Below are positions 5,239 to 40,164 of a stretch of DNA of 57,325 bases, piece by piece (position 1 is the stretch's first letter; each line of letters opens with the position of its first letter). The notes below the pieces were generated by a model, which saw only the letters and a program-made list of their open reading frames with translations, had not been told where the DNA came from and ran no database searches. A program made the translations under genes and the position numbers. This stretch comes from Acidocella aquatica (lineage in GTDB: Bacteria; Pseudomonadota; Alphaproteobacteria; Acetobacterales; Acetobacteraceae), in contig NZ_BSOS01000049.1 in NCBI RefSeq assembly GCF_030160635.1, positions 1 to 57,325 of the forward strand. The letters are read 5' to 3'.

Positions 5239-5256
5239 AATCTGGCGATCAGGTAA

Positions 5257-6649: not shown

Positions 6650-6699
6650 GCCCAATGCGGAAAAATTTACCCGGGGGTTACCCGGAGGGGAGATTTGAC

Positions 6700-20072: not shown

Positions 20073-20147
20073 GGGCGCGTAGCGCAGCGGTAGAGCACCA
20101 CCTTGACATGGTGGGGGTCACAGGTTCAATCCCTGTCGCGCCCACCA
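20073..20147 (+). tRNA. tRNA-Val (GAC)
   Basis: Cloverleaf of 75 bases including encoded CCA. The acceptor GGGCGCG pairs with CGCGCCC, the anticodon arm ACCACC-TTGACAT-GGTGG has anticodon GAC, and the T-arm contains GGTTCAATCCC. No prophage or integrase adjoins it. Confidence 0.96.
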
Positions 20148-22897: not shown

Positions 22898-22972
<75 letters not shown>

Positions 22973-24895: not shown

Positions 24896-24962
24896 GCCGC
24901 GTGGTTACAGCCTCATGCCGCGCTTAAGCAATCGCAGGCGGCGCGGTGGAGCGGGACAGGCG

Positions 24963-25640
24963 CTATAAATCCCCGGGAACCCCGTAGGCTGGCGCGCTGG
25001 CCGGGTTGAGCGCGCGGGTGACGTAATCCTGCATTTGCGGCTGCCAAAGCGCCCAAAGGGACGCGAGTTCCGCCAGCGGGGCTTCGTGCCAATCCACTCT
25101 TAGGTCAGCGATGGGCCAGGCGGCATCGCCGGTGAGAATGAGCCCGGCGGATTTGAGCGGCCCGGCCTCGCCGCCCGCTTCCAGCCCGGCCTGCAGGGCG
25201 GCGATGACGCGGGTGCCGAGTTCATCGGCCTGGGAGGTTGCCTCAAAGGCGCGCACCACGGCGGCGGGGACATTGGTGTTGGCCAGCAAATTTCCAGCCG
25301 AGACGCAATCCGCTCCTGGGGCCCAAGCGTGCAGCCCGAGCGTTTTTTGGCCCGAGTGCTGCGCGCCCTGGCCAGAACTGCCGATAAGGGTGATCTGGCG
25401 GTAGTCCGGGTAGGGGGCCTGGGCCATCGTGGCGGCGCATGCCTCTGCCGCGCTCATTCCCCGCGCGAGGAAATCCAGCGCCAGTGGCCCAAGCCGCGGG
25501 TCTGTGATGTTCTGGGTGGTGGCGGCGCCCACGCCGGCGCGCGCAAAGGCGCAACGCGCGGCCACGGCCGGCGAGGACGAGGTGACCGCTGCGGCGAACT
25601 GGCCGGTTCTCAGGCAGCGCGCGGCGAGGGAGAAGGTCAT
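24963..25640 (-). CDS. DUF1028 family protein (Ntn-hydrolase-like)
   Basis: 225 residues from the ATG at 25640. MTFSLAARC...AAVTSSSPAVAARC, QNITDPRLGP and GSSGQGAQHSGQ with CVSAGNLLAN are the conserved blocks of DUF1028, whose fold resembles N-terminal nucleophile hydrolases. An upstream in-frame extension overlaps the divergent regulator gene and is rejected. Family genes often sit with RidA, amidase and peptidase genes, as here. The divergent LysR gene starts 102 bases away and probably controls it. The reaction is unknown. Confidence 0.82.
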   Translation of the reverse strand: MTFSLAARCLRTGQFAAAVTSSSPAVAARCAFARAGVGAATTQNITDPRLGPLALDFLARGMSAAEACAATMAQAPYPDYRQITLIGSSGQGAQHSGQKTLGLHAWAPGADCVSAGNLLANTNVPAAVVRAFEATSQADELGTRVIAALQAGLEAGGEAGPLKSAGLILTGDAAWPIADLRVDWHEAPLAELASLWALWQPQMQDYVTRALNPASAPAYGVPGDL

Positions 25641-25693
25641 GGCGGAACTTTCATACAGAGCTGGCGCAGTATTCCCGTGCCGGCCTGGTTTTG

Positions 25694-25705
25694 TAAAATA
25701 TTTTA
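25694..25705. promoter_or_regulatory. Palindrome in the DUF1028/LysR divergent region
   Basis: TAAAATATTTTA is a perfect 12-bp palindrome between the two divergent starts. It is a candidate binding site for the adjacent LysR protein. It could also simply be AT-rich promoter DNA. Confidence 0.35.
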
Positions 25706-25742
25706 TTTTGACGGTTTGGCATAAAAAGGGCAAAGCAGAGAC

Positions 25743-26660
25743 ATGCGATTCACGCTGAGACAGATTGCATATTTTGTGGCGACGGCGGAGACCGGCAGCA
25801 TCACGCTGGCGGCGGAGCGGGTGAATATATCGCAGCCCTCCATCTCCTCGGCCATTACCGGGCTGGAGGAGGTGTTCGGGATTCAACTGTTCATCAGGCA
25901 CCATGCCCAGGGGCTCTCGCTCACCACCGAGGGGCAGCGGTTTTTGCTGGAGGCCAAGGGCCTGTTGATGCAGGCGGAAGAATTACAGAAAGCGGCTTCT
26001 GAGATTTCCTCGCGCGTGTCTGGACCATTGGAGATCGGTTGTTTATCGACACTGTTTCCCCTTGCAATACCTGAGCTTTTATCGGTATTCAAGAAGCGCT
26101 ATCCGGCGGTGCGCGTGAACCCGATTGCAGGACACCAGACAGAGATGTTTGAGAGTCTGCGCAGCGGCCAGATATCATTGCTGCTGACTTATGATATGAA
26201 CATTCCGGCGGATTTTGAATTTTCCCCGCTCGCTCCCTTGCCGCCTTATGCGTTTGTGGATGCGGGGCATGCCCTGGCGCAGCGAAAATCAGTGAAGTTG
26301 GAGGAGCTGGCGGGCGAAAATTTTATCCTGCTGGATCTGCCATTCAGCCGGGACTATTTTTTATCGCTGTTTCGCCAAGCGGGGGTGACGCCGCATATCA
26401 CCGGGCGGTTTCAGTATATCGATGTAATTCGTAGCCTGGTGGCGCGCGGGGAGGGCTATAGTCTCGCAAATGCGCGGCCGAAAAACCTCTCGACGCTGGA
26501 CGGACGCAAATTATCCTATTTAACGCTGGAGACTTCGCTGCAGCCGCTGGTGCATGGGATTGCGATGTTGCGGGGGTTGCGGCGCACGCCGGCCGCGGTG
26601 GCGTTTGCAAAAATCTGCGACGATGTTTTGCGTGATAAGCCGTTGCCCGGCACGGGCTAA
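25743..26660 (+). CDS. LysR-family transcriptional regulator
   Basis: 305 residues. The N-terminal HTH (MRFTLRQIAYFVATAETGSI, with NISQPSISSAITGLEE as recognition helix) is followed by a periplasmic-binding-like effector domain (about 90-295). The gene is divergent from DUF1028 and flanks the amine/amidase island, so it is the most likely local regulator of that island. Its stop overlaps that of the convergent M20 gene by 3 bases. The effector is unknown. Confidence 0.9.
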   Translation: MRFTLRQIAYFVATAETGSITLAAERVNISQPSISSAITGLEEVFGIQLFIRHHAQGLSLTTEGQRFLLEAKGLLMQAEELQKAASEISSRVSGPLEIGCLSTLFPLAIPELLSVFKKRYPAVRVNPIAGHQTEMFESLRSGQISLLLTYDMNIPADFEFSPLAPLPPYAFVDAGHALAQRKSVKLEELAGENFILLDLPFSRDYFLSLFRQAGVTPHITGRFQYIDVIRSLVARGEGYSLANARPKNLSTLDGRKLSYLTLETSLQPLVHGIAMLRGLRRTPAAVAFAKICDDVLRDKPLPGTG

Positions 26661-27796
26661 GTTTGCACCACGCGGCGGAGGAACCGGTCGCAGGCGTCTA
26701 ATTCCTCGCGTAGGATATATTCATTGGGTTTGTGTGCGCGGTCTATGGAGCCCGGGCCGCAAACAACGCATGGTAAACCCAGCGTTTTTGTAAACAGACC
26801 TGCCTCCGTGCCGAATGAAATCTTGATGGTTTCCGCATTGCCGGATGCCTGGGTTGCGCGTGTTGCGATGGGGGAATTCTCGGGTGTTTCCAGGCCCGGA
26901 TATTCATTGTCCACCCGCACCTCGATGCTGGCGCGGCGGCCGCTGCCGCGCACCGCTTGCGTGAGGGCAGCAGCCCGTGCGCGCAGGCGTTCGAGCAACA
27001 TTGCGGGATCGTCTCCAGGAAGATGACGGATTTCAAAATCCATATCGCAGCGCTCTGGAATAATATTGAGTACCGTGCCGCCTTTGATGGTGCCGATATG
27101 CACGCTGCTATGCGGGAATGCATAGGCGGAGTCATTCGCACCATTGTCCCTCAGCCAGGTTTGCAGTGCCTCGGTTTCCTGGATCATGGCGCTGGCGAGG
27201 TTGATGGCGTTGCAGCCAAGCGAGGGGTCGGCCGAGTGGGCGGATTCGCCGCGGCAGCAGATGCAGCCAGCAATTTTGCCTTTATGCCCGGTGGCGACCC
27301 GCAAGCCGGTGGGCTCACCGATAATACAGCCCGCCGCCTGAAAACCTTCGGCCTCCAGGCGCTGGAGCATGTGGCGTACGCCGACGCAGCCGATTTCCTC
27401 ATCGTAGGAAATGGCAAGATGCAGCGGGCGTGTGAGGGGGATGCTTTTGCTTTGCTCGGCAAGCGTTATCATGCTGGCGATAAAGCCCTTCATGTCGGAG
27501 GCGCCGCGCGCATAAAGCCGGTCTCCCCGCGCGCTCAGGTGGAACGGATCCGTGATCCAGCCAGGCTCGCTGGCCGGAACCACATCGCTATGTCCGGAGA
27601 GAATGATACCCTGGCCGGTGGTGGGGCCGAAGCTCGCGAACAGATTGCTCTTGCCGGGGATGTTGCCAGGTATCTCGCGCACATTGCCACCGGCGGCGGC
27701 GAGCCGGGCGGCTATGTAGGCGATTAGCTCATGGTTACTGTCGCGGCTGACGGTGGGAAAGGCCACGAGGCCGGCCAGTGTTGAAAGAGTGTCCAT
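26657..27796 (-). CDS. argE: M20-family deacylase (ArgE/acetylornithine deacetylase-like)
   Basis: 379 residues with the M20 di-zinc sites: His in LSGHSDVVP, Asp in GASDMKG, catalytic and ligand Glu pair in SYDEEIGC, a further ligand in IGEPTG, and a C-terminal His in AHKPNE. A dimerisation lid domain spans about 180-290. ArgE-type enzymes remove N-acetyl or N-formyl groups from amino acids. Its place in a catabolic island suggests deacylation of a pathway amide rather than arginine synthesis; the symbol marks the family only. Confidence 0.85.
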   Translation of the reverse strand: MDTLSTLAGLVAFPTVSRDSNHELIAYIAARLAAAGGNVREIPGNIPGKSNLFASFGPTTGQGIILSGHSDVVPASEPGWITDPFHLSARGDRLYARGASDMKGFIASMITLAEQSKSIPLTRPLHLAISYDEEIGCVGVRHMLQRLEAEGFQAAGCIIGEPTGLRVATGHKGKIAGCICCRGESAHSADPSLGCNAINLASAMIQETEALQTWLRDNGANDSAYAFPHSSVHIGTIKGGTVLNIIPERCDMDFEIRHLPGDDPAMLLERLRARAAALTQAVRGSGRRASIEVRVDNEYPGLETPENSPIATRATQASGNAETIKISFGTEAGLFTKTLGLPCVVCGPGSIDRAHKPNEYILREELDACDRFLRRVVQT

Positions 27797-28129
27797 TCAT
27801 CAAGACATAGCGCCGACCGCGATCGCTGCAAAGTCAGCATCAATGCACGAATATTAGGCGCCGAATGAGGCAGCTGCTACGGCGGCGTGCAAAACCTAAA
27901 ACAAACTTCGCTCATTGCTTTAATAAAATCGATGCAAAAAACGAGAAGGCATCGTGTAAGCTAAATCCAATAATTACGAAAATCTTGTTGGTGAGAGTGG
28001 AGTTATGGCGCGAAATCTCGTGATAATACCCGATTTATGTCCTTAAAACGCCGTGTTTTTTGTAAGACGGTGTGCCGTCGTCCTGACCGGCCTGGCTGCG
28101 CGCGGAAATTTTAAACCGAGGAAAAAACC
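27797..28129. promoter_or_regulatory. Divergent AT-rich region upstream of the amine-catabolism genes
   Basis: 333 bases between the M20 gene (leftward) and the NCS1 permease (rightward). It holds AT-rich stretches, a TTGC-(15)-GCAA inverted pair near 27915-27940, and a small stem GACGG-TGTG-CCGTC at 28066-28079. A 13-codon frame from 28004 has only a weak ribosome-binding site. The promoter of the ten-gene run must lie here, but I cannot place its boxes confidently. Confidence 0.4.
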
Positions 28130-29527
28130 GTGGAAACATTGAACGAAAATCCAACCAAAATTGAACAGCATACGATCTATCAGATACCAAGGGACCAGCG
28201 CCATGGGCGCTCGATGGATTTGTTCACCATCTGGTTTGGCTCCAACATCATGATGTTGACGATCGTAACAGGTGCGTTGGCCACAACGGTTTTCAAGCTC
28301 TCTTTCATGAGTGCCATTGCCTCGATTGCCGTGGGGAATCTGGTTGGCGCGATCTTCATGGCGCTGCACGCCGCGCAGGGGCCGCGGCTTGGTGTTCCGC
28401 AGATGGTGCAAACGCGCGGGCAGTTTGGCTCAATCGGCGCGGTTTTGGTGATTGGTATTGTGATCATCATGTATGTCGGCTTTCTGGCTTCAAATATTGT
28501 GCTGGGCGGGCAGTCGCTCAACACGATTATTCCGGGGATCAGCCAGAATGTGTTTCTCGTAATGATCGCGGTCATCAGTGTGGTGGCGACAATTTTTGGC
28601 CATGACCTGATCCACGCCTATGCGCGGGTGCTAACCTGGCTCTCCGGATTTGCGCTGCTTCTGTCTTTTGGCTGGATCATTTTCATTCATGGTTTGCCTG
28701 CGAATTTTATGACCATGAATAGCTACACCACGTCGGGATTTTTTAGCATGGTATCCGTGGGGGCGCTATGGCAGATCGCCTATGCGCCGTATGTCTCTGA
28801 CTATACGCGCTATATGCCACAGGATACGGGCGCTGTACCGGCGTTCTGGGCGTCCTATTGGGGCTGCACGCTGGGTTCTATTTTGCCGATGGTGCTCGGT
28901 GCGATGCTGGGGCTTCTGGCGAGCGATGGCAATGTGGTGGGAGGCTTGACCACCTTCACCGGCCCTGCAAGTTTCTTGATCGTGATCATCTTCTCAGTGG
29001 GGATCGCGGGAACAAACGCGATGAACCTATATTGCGGCGTGCTCTCGAGTATCACTCTCGTACAGACTTTTGCGCCGGACTGGAAAGCTGGGCCGGCAGC
29101 GCGGGTTGTGGTCGCGATTGCCATTACGGTTATAGGGTTATTCATCGCCATTTTCGCGGCGGCCAACTTCCTGACGAATTATACCAACTTCATCTTGCTG
29201 CTACTTTATGTACTGGTGCCTTGGACGGCAGTGAATTTGGTTGATTTCTATTTGGTTCGCCATGGCGATTATGATGTGGCGTCTTTCTTCACGCGGGATG
29301 GAGGGGTTTATGGAAAATTCAATAAATCCGCGATATTCTGTTATATTCTAGGAATCTTGATCCAATTGCCATTCGTGAATACCACTCTCTACACTGGGCC
29401 GGTCGCGAATATGCTGGATGGTGTTGATATTTCGTGGATCGTTGGTCTTTGTGTCGTGAGCCCTGTTTATTACTTTATGGCCCAGAAGGCGAGGGCACTG
29501 AATTTTGTGCCAAGTGGTCTGCAGTGA
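28130..29527 (+). CDS. NCS1-family permease (cytosine/purine/hydantoin type)
   Basis: 465 residues with about 12 hydrophobic helices. The N-terminus (HTIYQIPRDQRHGRSMDLFTIWFGSN) is typical of CodB-like NCS1 transporters, which import nucleobases, hydantoins and related N-heterocycles with a cation. It starts at a GTG preceded by GAGGAAAAAACC. It is the first of ten co-directional genes, and its stop overlaps the next start (GTGA). A cyclic nitrogen compound is a reasonable but unproven substrate. Confidence 0.88.
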   Translation: METLNENPTKIEQHTIYQIPRDQRHGRSMDLFTIWFGSNIMMLTIVTGALATTVFKLSFMSAIASIAVGNLVGAIFMALHAAQGPRLGVPQMVQTRGQFGSIGAVLVIGIVIIMYVGFLASNIVLGGQSLNTIIPGISQNVFLVMIAVISVVATIFGHDLIHAYARVLTWLSGFALLLSFGWIIFIHGLPANFMTMNSYTTSGFFSMVSVGALWQIAYAPYVSDYTRYMPQDTGAVPAFWASYWGCTLGSILPMVLGAMLGLLASDGNVVGGLTTFTGPASFLIVIIFSVGIAGTNAMNLYCGVLSSITLVQTFAPDWKAGPAARVVVAIAITVIGLFIAIFAAANFLTNYTNFILLLLYVLVPWTAVNLVDFYLVRHGDYDVASFFTRDGGVYGKFNKSAIFCYILGILIQLPFVNTTLYTGPVANMLDGVDISWIVGLCVVSPVYYFMAQKARALNFVPSGLQ

Positions 29528-30318
29528 AAATTGGAATTTGGCAAAGAATTGGTGCGCCGGGTGATAAGCAAGCCAATCTGGCGGCATTGGCGCAAAACGC
29601 CCGCGCCGCCAGCGCGGCTGGTGCCAAGCTTTTATTGTGTCCGGAGTGTTATCTCGCCGGCTATAATGTGGCGGATGACATAAAGGCACTGGCCGAACCC
29701 GTGGATGGTCCTGCTGCGCGGCAGATTTCCGAGATCGCGCGCCGCGAGAATATTGCTATTGTTTATGGATATGCAGAGCATGATTTAAAATCAAACGATA
29801 TATTCAACGCCGTGCAGGCCATTGGCCCAGGTGGCGCGGCATTAGGACATTATCGCAAGACGCATCTCTTTGGTGCCTTTGAGCACGCAATTTATAAGCC
29901 TGGAAATGGTTTTTCCGAACCGTTTATGCTGAACGGCTGGAAAATCGGCATGCTGATTTGTTACGATGTAGAGTTTCCAGAGGCTGTACGAAGCGTGGCG
30001 CTATCTGGTGCTGAGCTGATTCTGATTCCCACGGCATTGACCAAGGAATATAGCGCTGTTCCAGAGTATATTGTACCCGCACGAGCGGTCGAGAATCAGG
30101 TCTTTATTGCCTATTGTAACCATGCGGGAATGGAAAATAACATGAATTTTCTTGGGTTATCCAGGTTGGCTGGGCCCGATGGAAAAATCGATAAAGTAAC
30201 GGAAGATGGCGATACGCTTCTGATCGCGCAGATTAGCCATGAGAGATTGCAGGCTTGTGCGCAGATTTACCCCTACCGGCAGGATCGCCGCCGGGAATTA
30301 TATGGAAGACTGGTCTAA
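29524..30318 (+). CDS. Carbon-nitrogen hydrolase (nitrilase superfamily amidase)
   Basis: 264 residues from the GTG at 29524, overlapping the permease stop. The catalytic set is complete: Glu41 (LCPECYLAGYN), Lys112 (HYRKTHLFGAFE) and Cys146 (GMLICYDVEFPE), with Glu120 as a second structural Glu. Its length and motifs fit the amidase/N-carbamoyl hydrolase branch rather than true nitrilases. Tight coupling to an NCS1 permease suggests hydrolysis of an imported or pathway amide. An upstream in-frame ATG at 29434 lies inside the permease gene and is rejected. Confidence 0.88.
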   Translation: MKIGIWQRIGAPGDKQANLAALAQNARAASAAGAKLLLCPECYLAGYNVADDIKALAEPVDGPAARQISEIARRENIAIVYGYAEHDLKSNDIFNAVQAIGPGGAALGHYRKTHLFGAFEHAIYKPGNGFSEPFMLNGWKIGMLICYDVEFPEAVRSVALSGAELILIPTALTKEYSAVPEYIVPARAVENQVFIAYCNHAGMENNMNFLGLSRLAGPDGKIDKVTEDGDTLLIAQISHERLQACAQIYPYRQDRRRELYGRLV

Positions 30319-30346
30319 ACACGCAAATTAAAAAAGGAGATATGGG

Positions 30347-31759
30347 ATGACACATAAACTTCGTGAGGATGCTCTTTCCTTTTTTGAATCTCTGGTATTG
30401 GGCGTGGCTGGCTCTGGACCGGCCAATGCGATTTCTTTGGCGATGGGCTCGCTCATTGCGGCCGCCGGGCTGTTAAGTCCGTTGTATGTACTAATTTTTG
30501 CCGTGCCGATGCTTGGCATCGCGTTGGCCTACAAGGCGCTGAATAAACGCCTGACCCATGCCGGTGCCGCTTATAACTGGGTAGGTCAGGCATTTGGCAA
30601 GGTTAATGGCTTCATGGCGGGTTGGGCGTTGATTACCGCGCAAATGATTTTCATCATCTCCGGTGTGGTGCCACTCTCCACGGCGCTATTGAATTTCATT
30701 GCTCCAAGCATGGTGAATAATGTTGCTGTGATCACGATGCTTTCGACTTTATGGTTTTTGTTGATAACCGGCATCATTATGCTGGGAATAAAACTCACCA
30801 GCTATTTGCAAATTCTCATGCTATCATTCGAGATGGTCGTGTTGTTAGGCGTTGGCATTGCGGCGCTGGTAAAAGTGCATACCGTACCCTTCGCAAATGC
30901 ATTTTCATGGCATCTATATAGCCCAGGCTACTTGATCCACAATTTTTCAGCCGCGAGTTTTTCAGCCTCAGCCTTGGTCGTGGTCTTTTTATACTGGGGT
31001 TGGGATGTTACCGCGAATCTCGGGGAGGAAACCAAGAACGGTGAGCATGCCGCTGGAAACGGCGGGCTGTCGGGAGTGATTGTGACCATTGTCCTATATT
31101 CACTTTATGCCGGGGCGACGCTGGTACTATTCACTTTCGCGCAGACAGGAAATTTCAGCAGCAATCTGTTGTATGAAATCGCGATCGCCGCGGGACTCGG
31201 TAGAACGGGGGGACTGGTCGCATCAATCGCGGTCATTTTTTCCAGCGTGGCTACCGTGCAGACTGGCATGCTGCAGGTAACCCGGACACTCTTTGCCATG
31301 GGGCGCGATGGTGCCTTGCCGCATTATCTAGGTCAGGTAAGCCAGAAGACACAAACGCCGATGCCCGCGACTTATTGGCTGATTGGAACCGGGCTCGCGG
31401 GTATTCTCCTTACGGGATTCATGCCATCTGTCAGTGCGATTCTCAGCGACGGCGTGACGGCTTCAGGTTTGCAGGTCGCGTATTATTTTGGCATGGCGGG
31501 GCTGGTATCAGCCTGGGTGTTTCGGAAGACCTATCGGGAGTCTTGGTTGTATTGGCTGGCATTTTCAGTTTTCCCAGGTGTTAGCTCAGTATTTTTGATC
31601 GGCCTTGGGTTGTTCGCGATCACGACGTTTAATACGACCACAACTGTGGTGGGTGTGGGCACGCTATTGGCCGGGATCGTTTTATTCCGGCCTGCGCGAT
31701 ACAAGCTCAATGCGGATATTCCGCTAGGTGCGGTTGAGCAGGAAATATCCAGAGGATAG
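30347..31759 (+). CDS. APC-superfamily amino acid/amine permease
   Basis: 470 residues, ~12 transmembrane helices. The N-terminal GVAGSGPANAISLAMGSLIAAAG is the unwound helix-1 substrate motif of APC transporters, and YWGWDVTANLGEETKN in helix 6 is the conserved region of the amino acid/polyamine branch. AAGGAGATATGGG precedes the ATG. It is 6-9 bases from the aldehyde dehydrogenase gene, so it is part of the same operon. A biogenic amine or amino acid would be the expected cargo, judged from the dehydrogenases around it. Confidence 0.9.
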   Translation: MTHKLREDALSFFESLVLGVAGSGPANAISLAMGSLIAAAGLLSPLYVLIFAVPMLGIALAYKALNKRLTHAGAAYNWVGQAFGKVNGFMAGWALITAQMIFIISGVVPLSTALLNFIAPSMVNNVAVITMLSTLWFLLITGIIMLGIKLTSYLQILMLSFEMVVLLGVGIAALVKVHTVPFANAFSWHLYSPGYLIHNFSAASFSASALVVVFLYWGWDVTANLGEETKNGEHAAGNGGLSGVIVTIVLYSLYAGATLVLFTFAQTGNFSSNLLYEIAIAAGLGRTGGLVASIAVIFSSVATVQTGMLQVTRTLFAMGRDGALPHYLGQVSQKTQTPMPATYWLIGTGLAGILLTGFMPSVSAILSDGVTASGLQVAYYFGMAGLVSAWVFRKTYRESWLYWLAFSVFPGVSSVFLIGLGLFAITTFNTTTTVVGVGTLLAGIVLFRPARYKLNADIPLGAVEQEISRG

Positions 31760-31768
31760 GGTTATTTG

Positions 31769-33265
31769 ATGATGGCGCTTTCATATCAGGATTGGCGGAA
31801 ACGCTCATTGTCTATCATTCTGAAATCAGATCTTTTTATCGATGGTCAATTTGTGCCGGCACTGAGTGGGGCAACTTTTACCAAAATCAACCCAGCGACG
31901 GGCGCTGTTTTGGCACAAGTCGCAAAGGGAGACGCGGCGGATGTGGACCTGGCAGTGAAGGCTGCCAGGAGGGCATTTGAGGATCGGCGCTGGGTAGGAA
32001 AAACTCTGGCTGAGCGGCGTGCGGTGCTACTTCGTCTGGCAGACCTGATTGAGGAAAATGCCGTTGAACTGGCACTGACCGAGAGTCTGGATATGGGAAA
32101 ACCTGTGGCTGAAGCAGCCTCGATTGATATCCCAGGTGCTGCCGCCGTCTGGCGTTATTATGCTGAGGCGATGGATAAAATTTCCGATGAGGTCGCGCCG
32201 GTGGATGCGGGAAATCTCGCGCTGGTACGGCGCGTTCCCCTCGGCGTGGTGGGCGCGATCATCCCGTGGAATTTTCCGTTTGATATCGCGGCATGGAAGT
32301 GCGCGCCGGCGATTGCGGCGGGCAATTCGGTGGTGCTCAAGCCCTCCGAGCGGTCACCGTTTTCCGCATTGCGGCTTGCAGAACTGGCCAAGGCGGCGGG
32401 ACTGCCGGATGGCATCTTGAATGTAGTGACGGGACTTGGGCGTGGTGCAGGTGATGCGCTGGCCTTGAACAACGATGTTGATTGCCTGGTCTTTACGGGT
32501 TCGACCCATGTGGGCCGATCGTTGATGGGATATTCTGGACAGTCCAATTTAAAGCAGGTTTGGCTGGAACTTGGCGGCAAAAGTCCCAACCTCGTTTTTG
32601 CTGATACGAAAGACCTGGATTCAGCGGCGCAGATGGCTGCGTTTGGAATATTTTTTAACGCTGGGCAAGTGTGTTCAGCCAATGCGCGTCTACTGGTGGA
32701 GCGGCGTATCCATAACGAATTCGTGGAGCGGTTAGAAGTGCTGGCGCGGAATATGCAGCCGGGGGATCCGCTGGATCCTGAGAGCCGCATGGGTGCGCTG
32801 GTGGACAAGGCGCATCTGGCACATGTTATGGGGTATGTGGAGCGAGGTTGCAAAACGGCCCGGCTGGTGAGCGGTGGCGTGCCGGCGCAGGTGCATCCGG
32901 GAGGCGCTTTTATGCAGCCAACCATTTTTACCAACGTAAAATCTGATTCATTTTTGTTTCGAGAAGAGATTTTTGGACCGGTATTATCGGTAGTCGCGTT
33001 CGATTCCGAGGAAGAGGCGATCCGTCTTGCCAACGAGAGTGTTTATGGTCTGGCGGCCTCGGTGTGGACGGCAGATATCGACCGCGCGTTGCGTGTCTCG
33101 GAGCGGTTGCGGGCGGGCACGGTTTCAGTAAATACGGTGGATGCGCTGAGTCCGCAGACACCTTTTGGTGGTATCGGGCAATCAGGCTTTGGCAGGGATC
33201 TATCCTTGCATGCTCTGGAAAAATTCACAGCACTGAAAACCACTTGGATTAAATATGGAATGTAG
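31769..33265 (+). CDS. puuC: PuuC-like aldehyde dehydrogenase
   Basis: 498 residues. The nucleophile Cys is in FNAGQVCSANARL, the general base Glu in LELGGKSPNLV, and the NAD site in IPWNFPFDIAAWK. The N-terminus (YQDWRKRS...FIDGQFVPA) and overall sequence resemble gamma-glutamyl-gamma-aminobutyraldehyde dehydrogenase PuuC, which accepts various aminoaldehydes. Here it probably oxidises the aldehyde made by the amine dehydrogenase encoded downstream. The ATG at 31769 follows AGAGGATAGGG. No PuuA or PuuB is near. Confidence 0.86.
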   Translation: MMALSYQDWRKRSLSIILKSDLFIDGQFVPALSGATFTKINPATGAVLAQVAKGDAADVDLAVKAARRAFEDRRWVGKTLAERRAVLLRLADLIEENAVELALTESLDMGKPVAEAASIDIPGAAAVWRYYAEAMDKISDEVAPVDAGNLALVRRVPLGVVGAIIPWNFPFDIAAWKCAPAIAAGNSVVLKPSERSPFSALRLAELAKAAGLPDGILNVVTGLGRGAGDALALNNDVDCLVFTGSTHVGRSLMGYSGQSNLKQVWLELGGKSPNLVFADTKDLDSAAQMAAFGIFFNAGQVCSANARLLVERRIHNEFVERLEVLARNMQPGDPLDPESRMGALVDKAHLAHVMGYVERGCKTARLVSGGVPAQVHPGGAFMQPTIFTNVKSDSFLFREEIFGPVLSVVAFDSEEEAIRLANESVYGLAASVWTADIDRALRVSERLRAGTVSVNTVDALSPQTPFGGIGQSGFGRDLSLHALEKFTALKTTWIKYGM

Positions 33266-33361
33266 GCATGTTTGGTTTTGTTTTACTGAGGTAAAAATTT
33301 AATAGTATTGATTTTATCTTAGCTGCCTGATCTGGCATGTAGAGACGTGAGGAGAAAATCA

Positions 33362-33925
33362 ATGGCAAATCATGCAATTGTTCCAATATCGGATATTAAT
33401 GAAGATCGTGCAGCATCTAACAGAATGGCCTTTGTGGCGGCCATGCGTTGTGCCCCCACGGCTGTTAGCGTGGTGACCACAGACGGATCAGCCGGGCGCT
33501 TCGGGGTGACGGTGAGTGCCATTGCCTCGGTTTCAGCTGATCCGCCGATGTTGCTTGCGTGTATAAATCGCCGCAGTCCGGTGGGTGCCGCGGTGAAACA
33601 AAATCAGAAATTTACGGTTAACCTTTTATCGGAGCAGCAGACCAATATTGCGGATTGTTTCGCGGGACGATTTTCTGTGGATGGTGGCCCCGCATTTGAT
33701 TTTGGCCAGGCAGAATGGGCGGATGACGCTGCCGATTTGCCGCCTCGCCTGGAAGGCGCGTGCGCAAGTTTCCACTGTGACGTTGAGCAGATACATGATG
33801 CTGGGACGCATGTGATTCTGATCGGCCGGGTTGTCTTGGCGGTGAGCGGCAGTGAACCGCCGCTTGCCTATGTCCGTCAGAATTATGCGCGCGTGATGAA
33901 TTTCAAGCCTGGTCTCGCGGCTTGA
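33362..33925 (+). CDS. hpaC: Flavin reductase (HpaC-like)
   Basis: 187 residues of the flavin-reductase-like FMN-binding split barrel. FVAAMRCAPTAVSVVTTDG, GVTVSAIASVSADPPMLLACI (flavin phosphate site) and the C-terminal PPLAYVRQNYAR are typical of HpaC/RutF. It supplies free FADH2 or FMNH2 to the monooxygenase encoded next, 27 bases downstream. The ATG at 33362 has AGGAGAAAATC in front. Confidence 0.9.
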   Translation: MANHAIVPISDINEDRAASNRMAFVAAMRCAPTAVSVVTTDGSAGRFGVTVSAIASVSADPPMLLACINRRSPVGAAVKQNQKFTVNLLSEQQTNIADCFAGRFSVDGGPAFDFGQAEWADDAADLPPRLEGACASFHCDVEQIHDAGTHVILIGRVVLAVSGSEPPLAYVRQNYARVMNFKPGLAA

Positions 33926-33952
33926 GTGATTACAAACTAAAGGGGTTTTAAA

Positions 33953-35431
33953 ATGATTCGTACCGGACAGCAGTACAAGGACTCTATTCGCGATGGCCGC
34001 AGGGTTTGGATAAACGGTGAGATCGTTAAGGATGTAACTCTCCACCCAATGTTTAAGCCGCTCGTTGATATTCGCGCGCGGATTTATGATATGCAGCATG
34101 ATCCGAAGACAGCGCCGGTGATGTGCTATAAGGACGAATTGGGTAATAGTTCGGCAATCGGTCTTAAGTTGCCATTCACGAAGGAGGATTGGCACGCAAA
34201 GCGTGCTTCGACAGAAGCCGTGCTCAATGATGTTGGTGGGATTGTGACGCGCGTTGGGGATGAGACGATCGGTGAGATGTGGTCGCTCTTTGATGGGCAG
34301 GATGTTTTAAATGAGGTAAATCCACAGTTTTCTGAGAATATTCGGCGGCATATCGACAAGGCGGTGCGGGAGGATCCGTTTCATGTCTCGGCGAATACCG
34401 ATCCGAAGGGTGATCGCTCCAAACGGCCACAGGACCAAGATCCTGACATGCTGTTGCACGTGGTAAAGGAGACCGATGCCGGAATTATTGTGCGAGGCGC
34501 GAAATATGAAACCGCGGCAGCCTATTCCAACCAGGCATTCACGAAGCCGACAATTGCCAATTGGGGGAATGCTGAACTCTCCGATTATGCGGTCGGGTTT
34601 GTATGCGATCTGGGCTCACCAAATCTAAAATTTATCTGCCGCACGGGGTTTTCGGGACGTGCGCCCGCGGCGGATTATCCGCTTTCGAATAAATTCGATG
34701 AGGTGGATACGCTGGTGATTTTCGATAATGTGCTGATCCCTTGGGAGAATGTTCTGTTTTATAGACACACCAAGGCAGCAACGTTCATTCGTTCCACGTT
34801 GCATCGTTACAGCGCCTTTGCGTTTGTGCAACGTAATTTAAAACTCGCGGATATGATGATTGGCGCGGCCTTGTTCAACGCGCGGCAGACGGGGCTTGAT
34901 AAACAACAGGCAGTGCAGGAAAAACTCGCGCAGCTTGCTTGCTATCGCGAGGGAATCAATGCGCATCTCACGGCGGCTATTGCGACAGCGCAGAAAAGTC
35001 CTGGCGGACTGATGATGCCCAATCAGTCTTTGCTATACACAGGAAGGGTCTTGGCGTGTTCACAATTGCACCATATGATGCATATAGCTCGTGAGCTTTG
35101 TGGCGGACAGATTTGTGTGACGCCTGATTCGGCTTCCTTCGCGCATCCGGAGACCGGGCCATGGCTGGAGAAATTCTATACGATCAATGATCAGTGGCAA
35201 GCTGATGACCGGCGCAAGTTGCTAGCTTTTGCGCGGGATTTGCTGAACTCGGACTATGCCGGACACCGGCTGACCTTCCAGCTTTTCGCGCAATCACCAC
35301 CGTTTGCGCATTTGGCGTCGGTGTATAATAATTTTGATTGGGATGAGACGCTGCGGGTGGTGCATAAATCTGCTGGGTTGTCGGCGAATGTGCCTGGCGG
35401 CGCCGAGGCTGTGCGTCAAGCGGCGGAATAG
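33953..35431 (+). CDS. hpaB: FADH2-dependent monooxygenase (HpaB family)
   Basis: 492 residues, full length for the HpaB/TftD class. MIRTGQQYKDSIRDGRRVWINGE is the diagnostic N-terminus. The acyl-CoA-dehydrogenase-like fold follows, with the flavin region around VKETDAGIIVRGAKYETAAAYSN written in two family blocks, and ARELCGGQICVTPDSASF near the end. It uses reduced FAD and O2 to hydroxylate an aromatic or heteroaromatic ring. Family members include 4-hydroxyphenylacetate and pyrrole-2-carboxylate hydroxylases. The pathway context makes an arylacetate or imidazoleacetate plausible, but the substrate is unproven. Confidence 0.88.
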   Translation: MIRTGQQYKDSIRDGRRVWINGEIVKDVTLHPMFKPLVDIRARIYDMQHDPKTAPVMCYKDELGNSSAIGLKLPFTKEDWHAKRASTEAVLNDVGGIVTRVGDETIGEMWSLFDGQDVLNEVNPQFSENIRRHIDKAVREDPFHVSANTDPKGDRSKRPQDQDPDMLLHVVKETDAGIIVRGAKYETAAAYSNQAFTKPTIANWGNAELSDYAVGFVCDLGSPNLKFICRTGFSGRAPAADYPLSNKFDEVDTLVIFDNVLIPWENVLFYRHTKAATFIRSTLHRYSAFAFVQRNLKLADMMIGAALFNARQTGLDKQQAVQEKLAQLACYREGINAHLTAAIATAQKSPGGLMMPNQSLLYTGRVLACSQLHHMMHIARELCGGQICVTPDSASFAHPETGPWLEKFYTINDQWQADDRRKLLAFARDLLNSDYAGHRLTFQLFAQSPPFAHLASVYNNFDWDETLRVVHKSAGLSANVPGGAEAVRQAAE

Positions 35432-35442
35432 GAGTTGAGAGT

Positions 35443-35850
35443 ATGATCCATAAGCGTCTGCGGCGGTTCAACACCCGCGATACCTACCCGGAACAGAATC
35501 TTGATAATGATTTATGTCAGGCGGTAATTGCGGGAAAGACGATTTATCTGCGTGGCCAGGTGCCGCAGGATCTGGACACACGGGAGAATGTCGCGGTTGG
35601 AGATGCGGCGGGTCAGGCGGAGAAGGTGATGGAGAATATTGACCTATTGCTTCGCGAGTCTGGTGCTTCATTGGAGAATATCTGCAAGGTCACGGTCTAC
35701 CTGACGGATATCCGGCATCGCGAAGCAGTGTATCGGGTTGCGGGCAAGTGGCTGAAGGGCGTGTTCCCCGTGTTCACGGGGCTGGTTGTGGTGGCGTTGG
35801 CGCGGCCGGAATGGTTGGTGGAGATCGATGTAATTGCAGAATTATCCTGA
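35443..35850 (+). CDS. ridA: RidA/YjgF-family enamine/imine deaminase
   Basis: 135 residues. Chorismate-mutase-like trimer fold with LRGQVPQDLDT, QAEKVMENIDLLLRESG and ALARPEWLVEIDVIAE; the Arg in the last block is at the position that contacts the substrate carboxylate in RidA. Such proteins hydrolyse reactive imines or enamines. Operon-linked subgroups act in specific pathways (RutC, 2-aminomuconate deaminase). Here it follows a monooxygenase and precedes an amine dehydrogenase, both of which can give imines. AGGAG lies 8 bases before the ATG. Confidence 0.9.
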   Translation: MIHKRLRRFNTRDTYPEQNLDNDLCQAVIAGKTIYLRGQVPQDLDTRENVAVGDAAGQAEKVMENIDLLLRESGASLENICKVTVYLTDIRHREAVYRVAGKWLKGVFPVFTGLVVVALARPEWLVEIDVIAELS

Positions 35851-36038
35851 ATTCGACAGGTAATTAAAGAAATTTAGGGCGAAATTCAAGGGTTGTTCCA
35901 AATCTCATTGGATGAATCTGTTGTCGTGTATAATCGGCCAGCGTGATGGCGGCTGGCTCGCGGGCAGCACCGGATGCTGATGGTTTGGCCCTGCTCACGG
36001 TTGGAATGTTGGATAAATCTATATCCGCTGGAGAATTC

Positions 36039-38135
36039 ATGACGAATGATTCGCGCTACGATATTTTGTTCGAGCCCGTGCAAATTGGTCCTAAAACAGC
36101 GCGCAACCGCTTCTATCAGGTGCCGCATTGTAACGGCATGGGCTACCGCGACCCGACGGCGCTTGCTCACATGCGAGGCGTGAAGGCGGAGGGCGGATGG
36201 GCCGTGGTATGTAGCGAGCAGGTAGAGTTTCATTATTCCTCGGATATTACGCCATTCATTGAACTACGCCTGTGGGATGACCGGGATATTCCGGCACTTT
36301 CGCGGATGGTGGATAAAATTCATCAACATGGGAGTCTGGCGGGGATCGAACTGGCTTATAATGGTATGAATGGTCCCAATTTATATTCGCGGGAGGTACC
36401 GATGGGGCCGGCGCATTTGCCGGTTGCAACCTTCACCTATGACCCCGTGCAGGCACGGCGGATGGATTTGCAGGATATTCGCAATCTACGCCAATGGCAT
36501 TTGGCGGCGGTGCGGCGCGCCAGGCGCGCCGGGTTTGACCTGATTTATGTTTATGCTGCGCATTCACTTGGTTTTCTGCATCATTTTCTGTCCCGGCGGT
36601 TTAATGAACGAACCGATGAGTATGGCGGATCATTGGAGAACCGCATCCGGCTGTTGCGCGAGATCACCGAGGAGACGAAGGACGCGGTGGGGGATGTTTG
36701 CGCCATTCCGGTGCGAATATCTGTTGATGAATTGTTGGGTGAAGGGGGGCTGTATAAAGAGGAGGTTGAGGATATGATCGGCCTGATCGCTGACCTGCCG
36801 GACCTCTGGGACGTGACCCTGGCAGGTTGGGAGAATGATAGCCGGACTTCGCGTTTTTCGGAGGAAGGCGCACAGGAACCGTTTATTTCTGGTATAAAAC
36901 GTCTTACCTCAAAGCCAGTTGTGGGGGTTGGCCGGTATACCTCACCGGACAGAATGGTGAGCCTGGTAAAAAAAGGTATTGTGGATTTTATCGGCGCGGC
37001 GAGACCATCGATTGCTGACCCGTTTTTGCCGAATAAAATTCGTGAGGGGCGGTTTGACGATATCAGGGAGTGCATCGGCTGCAACATTTGTGTGTCGGGG
37101 GATTTCACGCAATCGCCGATCCGCTGTACGCAAAACCCATCCATGGGGGAGGAGTGGCGCAAAGGGTGGCATCCTGAGCGCGTGCAGCCCAAGGGCAAAA
37201 CCAGGTCTGTTTTGGTGGTGGGGGCTGGCCCGGCCGGGCTGGAGGCGGCGCATGTGTTGGGCAAGCGCGGTTACGATGTGACGCTGGCGGAAGCGGGAAC
37301 ACAGCTTGGCGGGCGGGTGATTGCCGAGGCTAAACTCCCAGGTCTTTCCGCTTGGAGCCGTGTGGCGGATTACCGGCGGATGCAGCTGCAAAAACTTAAA
37401 AATGTGGAGATTTTTTTTGATAGCCGGCTACAGGCCGCGGATGTATTGGAATTTGGTTGTCCCCGGGTTGTGCTGGCCACGGGAGCAAGGTGGCGCACTG
37501 ATGGCGCCGGCCATTTCCATACACGGTCAATCCCCATTGCTCAGGGGGCTTGCGTGTTATCGCCTTCCGAGATCATGGAAGGGCGCATGCCCGCGGGGCG
37601 CGAGGTGGTGGTGTGGGATGATGACCATTACTACATGGGCGGGGTGATTGCCGAATTGTTGGCGGAAAAAAATTATGAAGTCGCGTATCTTACGCCCGCC
37701 TCTGAAGCTTCAACATGGACTCGCAATACGATGGAGCAGCATTTCATTCAAAAGCGGATGCTTGAGAAGGGTATTGCCATCCATTCCTTTCAGGTACTGG
37801 AAAAAATTGAACTGGGTGTGGCGGTTGGCGCATGTGTTTTCACAGGACGGCAGACGCGCTTTATGGCTGATGCGGTGGTGTTGGTGACGGCGCGCCTGCC
37901 CAATGAACAATTGGCGCTGGATCTGTTGGCATGCCGCGAAGCATGGGCGGATGCCGGCATCGAGGATGTTACGGCAATCGGCGATGCGCTGGCGCCAGCG
38001 ACGATTGCTCATGCCACCTATGCTGGGCAGCGTTATGCGCGGATGCTCGATGAGGACCTCATGCCCGAGGGTGGGTTGCCCTTCCGCCGGGAGATTACTG
38101 AACTCTTGCCGATGATTGATTGGAAAAAAACATGA
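36039..38135 (+). CDS. Histamine/trimethylamine dehydrogenase-family amine dehydrogenase
   Basis: 698 residues: TIM-barrel FMN domain (1-335), 4Fe-4S site and two nucleotide-binding domains (390-690). Cys31 (QVPHC) matches the covalent 6-S-cysteinyl-FMN Cys30 of trimethylamine dehydrogenase. Cys345, 348, 351 (CIGCNIC) and Cys363 bind the cluster, and Asp267 of the catalytic set is kept. The substrate cage Tyr60/Trp264/Trp355 of the trimethylamine enzyme is Gln61/Trp264/Asp355 here; as I recall, histamine dehydrogenase has Gln/Trp/Asp. It should deaminate a primary amine to an aldehyde and pass electrons to ETF (no ETF gene here). The start is supported by GGAGA 5 bases before the ATG; an upstream frame lacks homology. 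Confidence 0.9.
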   Translation: MTNDSRYDILFEPVQIGPKTARNRFYQVPHCNGMGYRDPTALAHMRGVKAEGGWAVVCSEQVEFHYSSDITPFIELRLWDDRDIPALSRMVDKIHQHGSLAGIELAYNGMNGPNLYSREVPMGPAHLPVATFTYDPVQARRMDLQDIRNLRQWHLAAVRRARRAGFDLIYVYAAHSLGFLHHFLSRRFNERTDEYGGSLENRIRLLREITEETKDAVGDVCAIPVRISVDELLGEGGLYKEEVEDMIGLIADLPDLWDVTLAGWENDSRTSRFSEEGAQEPFISGIKRLTSKPVVGVGRYTSPDRMVSLVKKGIVDFIGAARPSIADPFLPNKIREGRFDDIRECIGCNICVSGDFTQSPIRCTQNPSMGEEWRKGWHPERVQPKGKTRSVLVVGAGPAGLEAAHVLGKRGYDVTLAEAGTQLGGRVIAEAKLPGLSAWSRVADYRRMQLQKLKNVEIFFDSRLQAADVLEFGCPRVVLATGARWRTDGAGHFHTRSIPIAQGACVLSPSEIMEGRMPAGREVVVWDDDHYYMGGVIAELLAEKNYEVAYLTPASEASTWTRNTMEQHFIQKRMLEKGIAIHSFQVLEKIELGVAVGACVFTGRQTRFMADAVVLVTARLPNEQLALDLLACREAWADAGIEDVTAIGDALAPATIAHATYAGQRYARMLDEDLMPEGGLPFRREITELLPMIDWKKT

Positions 38136-38500
38136 TGATTCCATTGATGCTGAATGCGGAGCGGGAGACGCTCGATGCCTGGGGCAGCCCGGAGGATATC
38201 GGCGCGGTGACGATTGTGGGGCCGATCGCCGTTTCGGGAAAGATTCTGATCGGGGGCGTGGATAAATCTGTATTCGGGGGATTATATGCCGCCACGCGTG
38301 GTATTTACCGTGTGGTTTATGGCTTTCATGAACATGCCACATTGTTGGATGGCGCGCTGAAAATGACGGATGAAAAATCCGGCCGGGAGGTTATTTATGG
38401 ACCGGGAGATTCCTGGATCATTGAAAAAGACACCTCGATGATATGGGAAATTCTCACACCATCGATTCGTAAGAGTTATATTGCAATTATCATGAATTGA
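38132..38500 (+). CDS. Cupin-domain protein (DUF861/EutQ-like)
   Basis: 122 residues overlapping the amine dehydrogenase stop (ATGATGA). The single cupin fold has HATLLDGALKMTDEKSGREV followed by IYGPGDSWIIEKDTSMIWE, the DUF861 pattern seen in EutQ and ureidoglycine aminohydrolase halves. It retains few of the usual metal His residues, so it may bind a ligand rather than catalyse. Translational coupling ties it to the amine dehydrogenase. Function is unknown. Confidence 0.75.
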   Translation: MMIPLMLNAERETLDAWGSPEDIGAVTIVGPIAVSGKILIGGVDKSVFGGLYAATRGIYRVVYGFHEHATLLDGALKMTDEKSGREVIYGPGDSWIIEKDTSMIWEILTPSIRKSYIAIIMN

Positions 38501-38542
38501 TGCTGCTCTCTGGCGCAAATGTGTTTTATTGGGAGGGGTACG

Positions 38543-38932
38543 ATGCCGGCCGGGAATGAGGTTATCCAGACCGCGCTTGATTTAATCGCGGCGTTTGCAA
38601 ACAATGACCGGGAAAAATATTTTTCATATTTTGCTCCGGATGCGAGTTTTATCTTCTATTCGGTTGATCGGCTTTTAGAGAGTCGCGCGGCCTATGAAGA
38701 AGAATGGGCCGGGTGGATTGAAAACATTGGATTCCATGTGGAAGAATGTGTTTCAATGAATCAGAAAGTCACAATATATGGAGATATTGCGGTTTTCCTT
38801 CATGAAACCAGAACGCGCGTTTCCACGAATGACGGCGAGCATGTTTACAATGAGAGAGAAACGATTATCTTTCATAAGATTGAAGGTAAATGGCTCGGTG
38901 TTCACGAGCATTTATCCCTGGTGCCGAGTTAG
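38543..38932 (+). CDS. SnoaL/NTF2-like protein (DUF4440 type)
   Basis: 129 residues from the ATG at 38543, which has GGGAGGGG 5 bases upstream. ALDLIAAFANNDREKYFSYF, then GDIAVFLHETRTR and a terminal GKWLGVHEHLS, form the cone-shaped NTF2/SnoaL fold common among small isomerases, hydrolases and ligand binders. It is last in the ten-gene run and, with the cupin, may handle an unstable intermediate. A specific reaction cannot be named. Confidence 0.75.
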   Translation: MPAGNEVIQTALDLIAAFANNDREKYFSYFAPDASFIFYSVDRLLESRAAYEEEWAGWIENIGFHVEECVSMNQKVTIYGDIAVFLHETRTRVSTNDGEHVYNERETIIFHKIEGKWLGVHEHLSLVPS

Positions 38933-39116
38933 GGCAATATGTGATTGGGTTGAACCGGATGGTTCACGATGATTGCGTGGATTGTTTGAAGGGCACTTGG
39001 TTGAGCAAGGCAAAAACGTGAATCGCCAGCAAAAAAGATGGCGGTGAATTTTGCTCATTCAGCGTGCATTATGCCATTCAAGGTGAGTCGCATATTTATC
39101 AGGTCTGGACCTTGCC

Positions 39117-39155
39117 AAAGCGCTCTGCCCGCCGGGTGGCGGGCGGAGCCCTTTG
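39117..39155 (-). terminator. Stem-loop after the acetoacetyl-CoA reductase gene
   Basis: The 12-bp stem GCTCTGCCCGCC/GGCGGGCGGAGC with loop GGGT (39122-39149) has one wobble pair. It starts about 14 bases past the minus-strand stop codon. The T-run is weak (CTTT), so termination may be partial. Confidence 0.6.
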
Positions 39156-39162
39156 CGCCCGT

Positions 39163-39885
39163 TCAATACATATGCTGGCCGCCGTTGATGGAGAGCGTGG
39201 AGCCGGTGATGAAATCAGCTTCGTCAGCGGTGACAAACACCACGCCGCGCGCGATGTCTTCCGCCTTGCCGAGCCGGCCGCGGGGGATTTTGGCGACGAT
39301 TTTCTCCAATACGTCAGGCGGGACGGCGCGCACCATGTCGGTATCAACATAGCCGGGGGCGATGGCGTTGGCGGTGATGGAATAACGGGCACCCTCCAGC
39401 GCCAGGGCCTTGGTGAAGCCGTGGATGCCTGATTTGGCGGCGGCGTAGTTAACCTGGCCGTATTGCCCGGCCTGGCCGTTGATGGAGCCGATGTTGACGA
39501 TACGGCCGAATTTGCGCGCCTTCATGCCGTCAAACGCGGCTTTGCAAAGATTGAAGCAGGAGCCAAGGTTGGTGTCGATCACTGCGTCCCACATGTCGCG
39601 CGTCATTTTGCTGATAACGGTGTCACGCGTGATGCCGGCGTTGTTGACGAGGATGTCCAAAGAGCCGTGCTTGGCGACGATGGCGTTTACCGCGTTGACG
39701 CACTGGTCATAGTCACCGACATCGAAGCGCATGGTCTCGATACCGGTTTCAGCGGAGAAAGCCTCGGCAGCGGCGGTGTTGCCTGCGTAGTTGGCAACGA
39801 CAGTTCGCCCAGCCTGTTTGAGCGCGATGCTGATGGCAGCCCCGATCCCACGAGTGCCGCCGGTAACTAATGAAATGCGTGCCAT
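39163..39885 (-). CDS. phaB: Acetoacetyl-CoA reductase (PhaB-type SDR)
   Basis: 240 residues. SDR cofactor loop TGGTRGIGAAI, VNNAGITRD, catalytic Ser in NIGSINGQAGQYGQVNYAAAK written across one block (Ser-Tyr-Lys), and the C-terminal TGSTLSINGGQHMY. GSINGQ...GQVNY and RGRLGKAEDIA match PhaB, which makes (R)-3-hydroxybutyryl-CoA for polyhydroxyalkanoate storage. FabG is the nearest alternative. No PHA synthase gene is in the window. Confidence 0.87.
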   Translation of the reverse strand: MARISLVTGGTRGIGAAISIALKQAGRTVVANYAGNTAAAEAFSAETGIETMRFDVGDYDQCVNAVNAIVAKHGSLDILVNNAGITRDTVISKMTRDMWDAVIDTNLGSCFNLCKAAFDGMKARKFGRIVNIGSINGQAGQYGQVNYAAAKSGIHGFTKALALEGARYSITANAIAPGYVDTDMVRAVPPDVLEKIVAKIPRGRLGKAEDIARGVVFVTADEADFITGSTLSINGGQHMY

Positions 39886-40121
39886 GTGTTTTCCCTCCGG
39901 TTTCCTTGAAGGCTAGACGATTTCCATATCTTCGGGAAGGTGGGAAAAGCGTTTGCTGTGCAGGTTAGACTGATAAATATATGCAATGGAATTTGATTTG
40001 CCCGCTTGACGAAGTCAAAAATCATGTTTTGGAGCGCAAATTGGTCTGGTTGTGCCTGAGCAGCGCGGGAGCGTCATTCAGGGCTGGTCTGGGCTGGGTG
40101 TTGGATATTGAATGAAACAAG

Positions 40122-40151
40122 AGTGGCCGCATTTGGGGCGCGGCCACTTTT
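40122..40151. terminator. Terminator-like hairpin after the iron alcohol dehydrogenase gene
   Basis: Perfect 9-bp stem AGTGGCCGC/GCGGCCACT with a 9-base loop (40122-40148), 17 bases past the minus-strand stop. TTTTG flanks it on the plus strand and a mixed T-rich stretch (CTTGTTTC) follows on the minus strand. Confidence 0.65.
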
Positions 40152-40164
40152 GCCGTGGTTTTAT

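Follow-up and report, generated by a model that had tools for sequence, protein, structure and literature searches.

At positions 28130-38932 of the window, a stretch of 57,325 nucleotides from Acidocella aquatica (contig NZ_BSOS01000049.1), ten genes in the same direction include those for an amine dehydrogenase of the Old Yellow Enzyme (OYE) family, an HpaB-type monooxygenase, a flavin reductase and a Rid protein (RidA). The reading that we favour, with a probability of about 0.68, is that this locus would serve the catabolism of histamine and imidazoleacetate in the manner of the Pseudomonas hin pathway, the HpaB-type enzyme replacing the monooxygenase HinF. The hin pathway itself is known; what would be new is a variant with a predicted two-component imidazoleacetate monooxygenase. 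The observations behind this reading are the gene families, their recurrent linkage, the interchange of the two oxygenases alongside common partner genes, and residue signatures.

The LysR-type regulator encoded beside the island scored 219 bits against PDB entries 3fzv and 6m5f, to which it is 33-38% identical, the next PDB sequence scoring 76 bits. A Foldseek search with a model of this protein (pLDDT 89, 22 sequences) also placed 6m5f and 3fzv on top, at 36-38% identity, 6m5f being titled HinK of P. aeruginosa, and the regulator is HinK-like. According to a portion of PMC8231116, hinDAC and hinFLHG are under the control of HinK, which responds to imidazole-4-acetate, and P. putida U turns histamine into aspartate. 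In an excerpt of PMC6467879, HinF is given as a FAD monooxygenase (EC 1.14.13.5), HinL as an enamine deaminase, HinH as an amidase, HinG as EC 3.5.1.8 and HinI as aspartase. The original prediction had included a histamine branch, in which an amine dehydrogenase, an aldehyde dehydrogenase, ring hydroxylation and hydrolysis would lead towards aspartate; this branch stands in outline, by virtue of the HinK-like LysR protein, the residues of the dehydrogenase and the hin-type partners. The genes for the LysR protein and for a DUF1028 protein lie beside the island and had been left out of the predicted gene set, while the M20 hydrolase drawn into the predicted route is encoded outside the ten-gene run, on the minus strand at 26657-27796.

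Conserved neighbours of the HpaB-type gene

A scan of genome contigs with the HpaB-type protein of the window rendered 334 stretches with a relative, of which the best 80, with 76-94% identity, were taken. Neighbours were tabulated by direct tblastn, the flavin reductase being counted at 34% identity or more and the OYE dehydrogenase and the aldehyde dehydrogenase at 50% or more; many of these 80 loci end at contig ends. RidA was found in 74 of the 80, the DUF1028 protein in 69, LysR in 58, the flavin reductase in 52 and the M20 hydrolase in 38. The OYE dehydrogenase was present in 12 loci and the aldehyde dehydrogenase in 3; 6 loci have aspartase and 7 have HutD. The recurrent unit is HpaB, RidA, DUF1028 and LysR, often accompanied by the flavin reductase and the M20 hydrolase. 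The ten genes as a set, for which a search of conserved co-occurrence had been proposed, did not recur: the nearest of the 80 relatives (L011) has nine of the ten, its best aldehyde dehydrogenase match being 36%. No RidA was found beside four remote HpaB homologues (L007-L010), a weak control with flanks of 1.5 kb at most.

Among named records, the HpaB proteins closest to that of the window come from a proteobacterial metagenome-assembled genome (94%), Acidiphilium iwatense (87%) and metagenome-assembled genomes of Acidocella (85-87%). Close HpaB proteins occur in 4 of 36 genomes of the same genus, and this patchy occurrence, together with the low GC content of the island, would fit two unrelated gene groups joined by chance. 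Such a junction is very improbable indeed, since the same gene groups stand together again in distant lineages, including Ideonella, where HinF is the oxygenase. Across loci L011-L090 the HpaB proteins are 76-94% identical even with Actinomycetota included (77%), while the adjacent LysR, M20 and DUF1028 proteins are mostly 40-65% identical; conservation of HpaB above that of its neighbours suggests that it is under unusual constraint or was transferred recently.

HpaB and HinF among shared partners

A different oxygenase candidate, an NAD(P)/FAD-dependent oxidoreductase of ca. 420-450 amino acids, nearest to TIGR04046 but under its cut-off, is encoded beside RidA-DUF1028 and argE genes on annotated plasmids. 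The clade of this oxidoreductase, defined at E<=1e-130, is probably HinF, with RidA, DUF1028 and the M20 hydrolase as the probable HinL, HinH and HinG, respectively, assignments based on gene order and annotation. Among 397 sampled genomes from the phylum to which the window belongs, the HinF clade was found in 40, the HpaB clade in 9 (that of the window included) and both in 2. In the window genome there is no HinF match at that threshold, and HpaB and the flavin reductase are present instead. From the sample, 41 HinF stretches were fetched (another place being already inside L124), 40 of which carry HinF at 55% identity or more. Beside HinF in these 40 loci are RidA (36), DUF1028 (35), M20 (31), LysR (31), the aldehyde dehydrogenase (14), the OYE dehydrogenase (10), the NCS1 permease (7) and, at 45% identity or more, the nitrilase (1). 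In half of them (20/40) the genes for HinF, RidA, DUF1028 and M20 are contiguous and in the published hinF-L-H-G order.

Individual loci show the same correspondence. L060 carries HpaB, the flavin reductase, RidA, DUF1028, aldehyde dehydrogenase, LysR and OYE genes, and L205 carries HinF, RidA, DUF1028, aldehyde dehydrogenase, LysR, M20 and OYE genes. Komagataeibacter L036 and L042, with HpaB, and Acetobacter L100, with HinF, have in common a GMC oxidoreductase, NCS1, M20, LysR, RidA and DUF1028, L100 differing by an extra aldehyde dehydrogenase and another gene order. In Ideonella L102, a cupin-OYE-aldehyde dehydrogenase group lies ca. 9 kb away from HinF-RidA-DUF1028-argE on the same plasmid.

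When loci were labelled by their oxygenase, the label changed at least 9 times on the tree of DUF1028 (84 HpaB and 42 HinF rows, 126 in all), at least 8 times on the M20 tree (79 rows, 42 and 37) and at least 3 times on the OYE tree (28 rows, 13 and 15). The trees come from quick searches, and in that of DUF1028 many forks are poorly supported and some branches are long, so that 9 is a minimum for that tree and not a proven figure. The labels are more clustered than in shuffles, as would be those of linked genes. Short or duplicate loci (L001-L010, L099, L131, L146-L183 and L229-L231) were left out of label counts, alignments and trees, as were rows under the coverage or identity limits, and merging of identical rows was confined to the trees; some same-genome copies are therefore counted among the 179 labelled loci, the 155 Rid rows and the 110 HpaB rows. 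The unrelated oxygenases HpaB and HinF thus seem to have been repeatedly exchanged among shared pathway partners in bacteria. In a search of plasmids, HinF itself was followed in similarity by proteins of the MSMEG_0569 family (identity ca. 34-41%), which are frequent on plasmids of Klebsiella, next to genes for AMP-binding proteins.

Several observations weigh against the equivalence of both oxygenases, or against histamine as the usual substrate. HinF and HpaB occur together in 5 of the 179 labelled loci (L080, L084, L094, L095 and L204), some being copies from one genome, so that the two oxygenases may not be equivalent. The scarcity of the OYE dehydrogenase (12/80) and of the aldehyde dehydrogenase (3/80 at 50% identity or more) beside HpaB indicates that the usual HpaB substrate may come by another route. 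A survey of 289 genomes from the same class as the window gave 40 DUF1028 places, and stretches were fetched for all but the window's own; of these 39, 16 have HpaB (at least 55% identity), 3 have HinF, none has both and 20 have neither, several of these 20 being more distant DUF1028s or near contig ends and some holding RidA and DUF1028 but no oxygenase within the stretch. Aspartase is beside none of the 40 HinF loci, and the window genome shows just a 40%-identical aspartase/fumarase-like gene. Moreover, DUF1028 was matched to HinH and M20 to HinG by order and annotation, and two substrate-site positions of the dehydrogenase are divergent, Tyr181 being Leu in the window enzyme (the site as listed in part of PMC10180351) and the column of Asp270 holding Cys in 20 of 33 rows, yet Asp in the window enzyme.

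These data could also be explained if the HpaB clade acted on a related azole acid, such as methylated imidazoleacetate or another imidazole acid, with the same RidA, DUF1028 and M20 proteins and with the histamine dehydrogenase feeding a mixed pathway. We consider this unlikely, but it is a serious candidate because of the dual-oxygenase loci (plasmids of Parasedimentitalea and Pseudohalocynthiibacter among them), the 68 of 80 HpaB loci whose fetched stretch lacks an OYE dehydrogenase at 50% identity, and the 20 of 39 DUF1028 stretches with neither oxygenase; transporters also vary between annotated loci. On the other hand, HpaB is the sole ring monooxygenase found in the window cluster, beside a dehydrogenase of the histamine type, and the layouts otherwise agree with those of HinF loci.

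Residues and substrates of the candidate enzymes

The OYE-family enzyme of the window is a probable histamine dehydrogenase, as judged from its similarity to those of 3k30 (935 bits) and 6de6 (905 bits), followed by 6l6j (710 bits) and trimethylamine dehydrogenase (563 bits). The cofactor cysteines are kept, namely Cys63 for 6-S-Cys-FMN and Cys377, Cys380, Cys383 and Cys395 for the 4Fe-4S cluster (numbering of the 730-residue open reading frame). Eight histamine-binding residues of 3k30 are listed in PMC10180351, and 7 of these 8 are kept in the window enzyme. Trimethylamine dehydrogenase has Tyr where Gln65 stands, and Trp near the position of Asp358.

Agmatine, diamine or polyamine catabolism would have the OYE enzyme oxidise a diamine, a PuuC-like aldehyde dehydrogenase make an amino acid, and the nitrilase-family enzyme act as amidase. 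The aldehyde dehydrogenase of the window is indeed nearest to PuuC, and an excerpt of PMC10180351 gives rates for the Rhizobium histamine dehydrogenase of ca. 10% on agmatine and ca. 13% on 1,3-diaminopropane, relative to histamine, and a similar Km of the Nocardioides enzyme for agmatine and histamine. Such a route is nonetheless very unlikely, as it leaves HpaB, RidA, DUF1028 and the HinK-like regulator without a role, the histamine-site residues are kept at 7 of 8 positions, and the nitrilase scores 112 bits against an AguB cut-off of 410.

The HpaB-type enzyme is proposed, from sequence comparison, to be an imidazoleacetate monooxygenase standing in for HinF, the flavin reductase supplying reduced flavin. 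A portion of PMC10816480 describes the R100-Y104-H142 triad of 4-hydroxyphenylacetate 3-hydroxylase as crucial for substrate binding. In the alignment of the clade Arg100 is kept, while Glu replaces Tyr104 and Ser replaces His142, in 110 of 110 rows, and the window protein scores under both HpaB equivalog cut-offs. The tyramine branch of the original prediction, leading through 4-hydroxyphenylacetate to homoprotocatechuate, was rejected on this loss of two of three substrate-binding residues. It agrees with HpaB/HpaC family membership and with activity on tyramine reported for histamine dehydrogenases in part of PMC10180351, but no ring-cleavage dioxygenase family was matched among the cluster proteins scanned, as had already been remarked from the sequence, and we regard it as extremely unlikely. 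Among the papers listed in a literature search outside subscription journals, none described an HpaB-type two-component imidazoleacetate monooxygenase, and the main text of one review on two-component FAD monooxygenases mentions neither imidazole nor histamine.

As for the hydrolases, imine or enamine hydrolysis had been ascribed to RidA, which is doubtful: a section of PMC4433059 presents an arginine as essential for imine hydrolysis by Rid proteins, and this position (Arg105) is Phe in the window and Ser in 131, Phe in 17, Cys in 6 and Gly in 1 of 155 rows, with Arg in none. The amidase role had been given to the nitrilase-family enzyme, but the recurrent candidate amidases are DUF1028 and the ArgE-type M20 protein instead. 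The model of the DUF1028 protein (pLDDT 93) matched the fold of 2imh, itself a DUF1028 protein, and beyond it gave only weak matches, to Anbu and to subunits of the proteasome, with E values from 2.6e-4 upwards and TM scores of ca. 0.4-0.5. Thr2 is invariant in the 66 of 66 DUF1028 stretches from L011-L090, which we take to fit the N-terminal threonine nucleophile of N-terminal nucleophile (Ntn) hydrolases. This resemblance suggests an amidase role, and the modelled structure suggests that DUF1028 could be an Ntn-type amide hydrolase, the probable counterpart of HinH. In the literature covered, no paper contained the term DUF1028. The M20 protein is above the TIGR01892 and NF005710 cut-offs, and its family is beside HinF in 31 of 40 loci.

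Other groupings of these hydrolases were also observed. RidA, DUF1028 and argE are joined in L104, L092 and L226-L228 by a sub-module whose genes resemble those of type II dehydroquinase and GhrA, and on annotated plasmids it also has glutathione S-transferase and quinone oxidoreductase genes; the stretch fetched from Pantoea (L104) lacks both HinF and HpaB. The Bacillus badius plasmid locus L096 has a 56%-identical HpaB with RidA, DUF1028, a class II histone-deacetylase-like protein, an aminotransferase, an aldehyde dehydrogenase and two permeases, and this Bacillota plasmid locus is possibly a version for acetylated amines.

Locus layout, proposed route and known systems

All ten open reading frames of the run match known families in profile searches of the window. 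The description of the genes as co-directional with short gaps or overlaps is borne out by these matches and by the junctions: the NCS1 stop overlaps the nitrilase start at 29524 and the OYE stop overlaps the cupin start at 38132, the largest gap being 188 bp, just before the likely OYE start (ATG at 36039). The low GC claimed for the island holds in that 2-kb windows give 0.49-0.56 there and mostly 0.59-0.68 elsewhere, but not as a feature of the island only, since 0.55-0.60 is also reached at ca. 4-9 kb and 39-43 kb of the window. A promoter and terminator scan of 24900-40200 gave no more promoter-like matches than shuffled sequence. Upstream of the cluster lie tRNA-Val(gac) at 20073-20147 and tRNA-Thr(cgt) at 22898-22972, and at ca. 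3000-10000 the GC content is again lower (0.55-0.59) and the GC skew is raised.

Features of the A. aquatica locus, with window coordinates and the matches or residues behind each assignment
Feature	Positions	Strand	Evidence
DUF1028 protein, 225 aa (ATG start inferred)	24963..25640	-	PF06267 E 2.9e-59; Thr2 in 66/66 L011-L090 stretches
LysR regulator, HinK-like	25743..26660	+	219 bits to 3fzv and 6m5f
ArgE-type M20 hydrolase, probable N-formylaspartate deformylase	26657..27796	-	above TIGR01892 and NF005710 cut-offs
Divergent intergenic region, 333 bp, presumed promoters	27797..28129	.	sequence
NCS1-family permease	28130..29527	+	PF02133 E 2.3e-55
Nitrilase-superfamily hydrolase (carbon-nitrogen hydrolase), GTG start	29524..30318	+	PF00795 E 1.2e-49; below every NCBIfam cut-off
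APC-family amino acid/amine permease	30347..31759	+	PF13520 E 3.4e-27
Aldehyde dehydrogenase (PuuC-like)	31766..33265	+	PF00171 E 4.2e-166; top NCBIfam PuuC 608 bits, cut-off 850
Flavin reductase (RutF/HpaC-like)	33347..33925	+	PF01613 E 1.2e-35; under NCBIfam cut-offs
HpaB-type monooxygenase	33953..35431	+	PF11794/PF03241; R100 kept, E104 and S146 for Tyr and His
Rid protein without catalytic Arg, probable HinL counterpart	35443..35850	+	PF01042 E 2.7e-22
Histamine dehydrogenase-like OYE-family flavoenzyme	36039..38135	+	3k30 935 bits; start inferred, ORF (open reading frame) opens 35943
EutQ-like cupin	38132..38500	+	PF05899 E 2.1e-12; same dehydrogenase pairing in Ideonella L102
SnoaL-like protein	38519..38932	+	PF13474 E 6.2e-14; in 1/80 relatives

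In the route that we infer, from the individual reactions and their substrates to the order of the hydrolytic steps and the regulation, histamine would be imported by the APC or the NCS1 permease and converted by the OYE-type histamine dehydrogenase into imidazole acetaldehyde, the electrons probably passing to electron-transfer flavoprotein (ETF). ETF is a possible acceptor because ETF genes adjoin the L095 cluster and ETF-beta is found, at 64%, in the window genome. An aspartase gene also adjoins L095, and HutH is present in the window genome. The aldehyde dehydrogenase would then yield imidazole-4-acetate, which would also activate the HinK-like LysR protein, and the HpaB-type oxygenase with its flavin reductase would hydroxylate the ring in the place of HinF. 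Ring opening and release of the imine nitrogen may then fall to the Rid protein lacking Arg and the DUF1028 hydrolase, and the ArgE-type M20 protein may deformylate N-formylaspartate to aspartate and formate. For the narrower proposal, that the HpaB clade is a two-component imidazoleacetate monooxygenase repeatedly displacing or displaced by the unrelated HinF, and that in both versions DUF1028 and the Arg-less Rid protein are the hydrolases for ring opening and deamination, the odds are about even.

If this reading is true, bacterial histamine breakdown would no longer be confined to the enzymes of Pseudomonas but would take in acidophiles, rhizobia, acetic acid bacteria, some actinomycetes and marine bacteria, and the HpaB family would gain a non-phenolic heterocycle as a substrate. 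Functions, directly testable, would also be provided for the domain family DUF1028 and for a Rid group outside the imine hydrolases, and the locus would represent a clear case of unrelated enzymes recurrently exchanged among conserved pathway partners.

Among known systems, the Rut pyrimidine pathway also has a flavin reductase (RutF) and a Rid protein (RutC) next to an oxygenase. RutA, however, is a luciferase-type oxygenase, unlike the HpaB-type enzyme described here, and the Rid protein scores 42 bits for RutC, well short of the cut-off of 169. With 4-hydroxyphenylacetate 3-hydroxylase HpaB/HpaC (Thermus 2yyk), the window enzyme shares the protein family, Arg100 and a separate flavin reductase, but it differs in having Glu for Tyr104 and Ser for His142 and in a gene context that is not phenolic. 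Like the histamine dehydrogenases of Nocardioides simplex (3k30) and Rhizobium sp. (6de6), the OYE enzyme has the Cys for 6-S-Cys-FMN and four 4Fe-4S cysteines, whereas Tyr181 of those enzymes is replaced by Leu. The statement that no characterised cluster has this set of genes needs to be qualified, since the partners resemble the published hin pathway, although the monooxygenase and the amine oxidation step do differ from it. In common with hin of Pseudomonas putida U and P. aeruginosa (hinABCD, hinFLHG and hinK), the locus has a HinK-like LysR protein, an aldehyde dehydrogenase and an APC permease, and RidA, DUF1028 and ArgE-M20 as probable HinL, HinH and HinG. No HinC-type histamine-pyruvate aminotransferase was found among the cluster proteins scanned, its place being taken by the histamine dehydrogenase, and, unlike in hin, HpaB and the flavin reductase stand where hin has the FAD monooxygenase HinF, and the genes are gathered in one locus.

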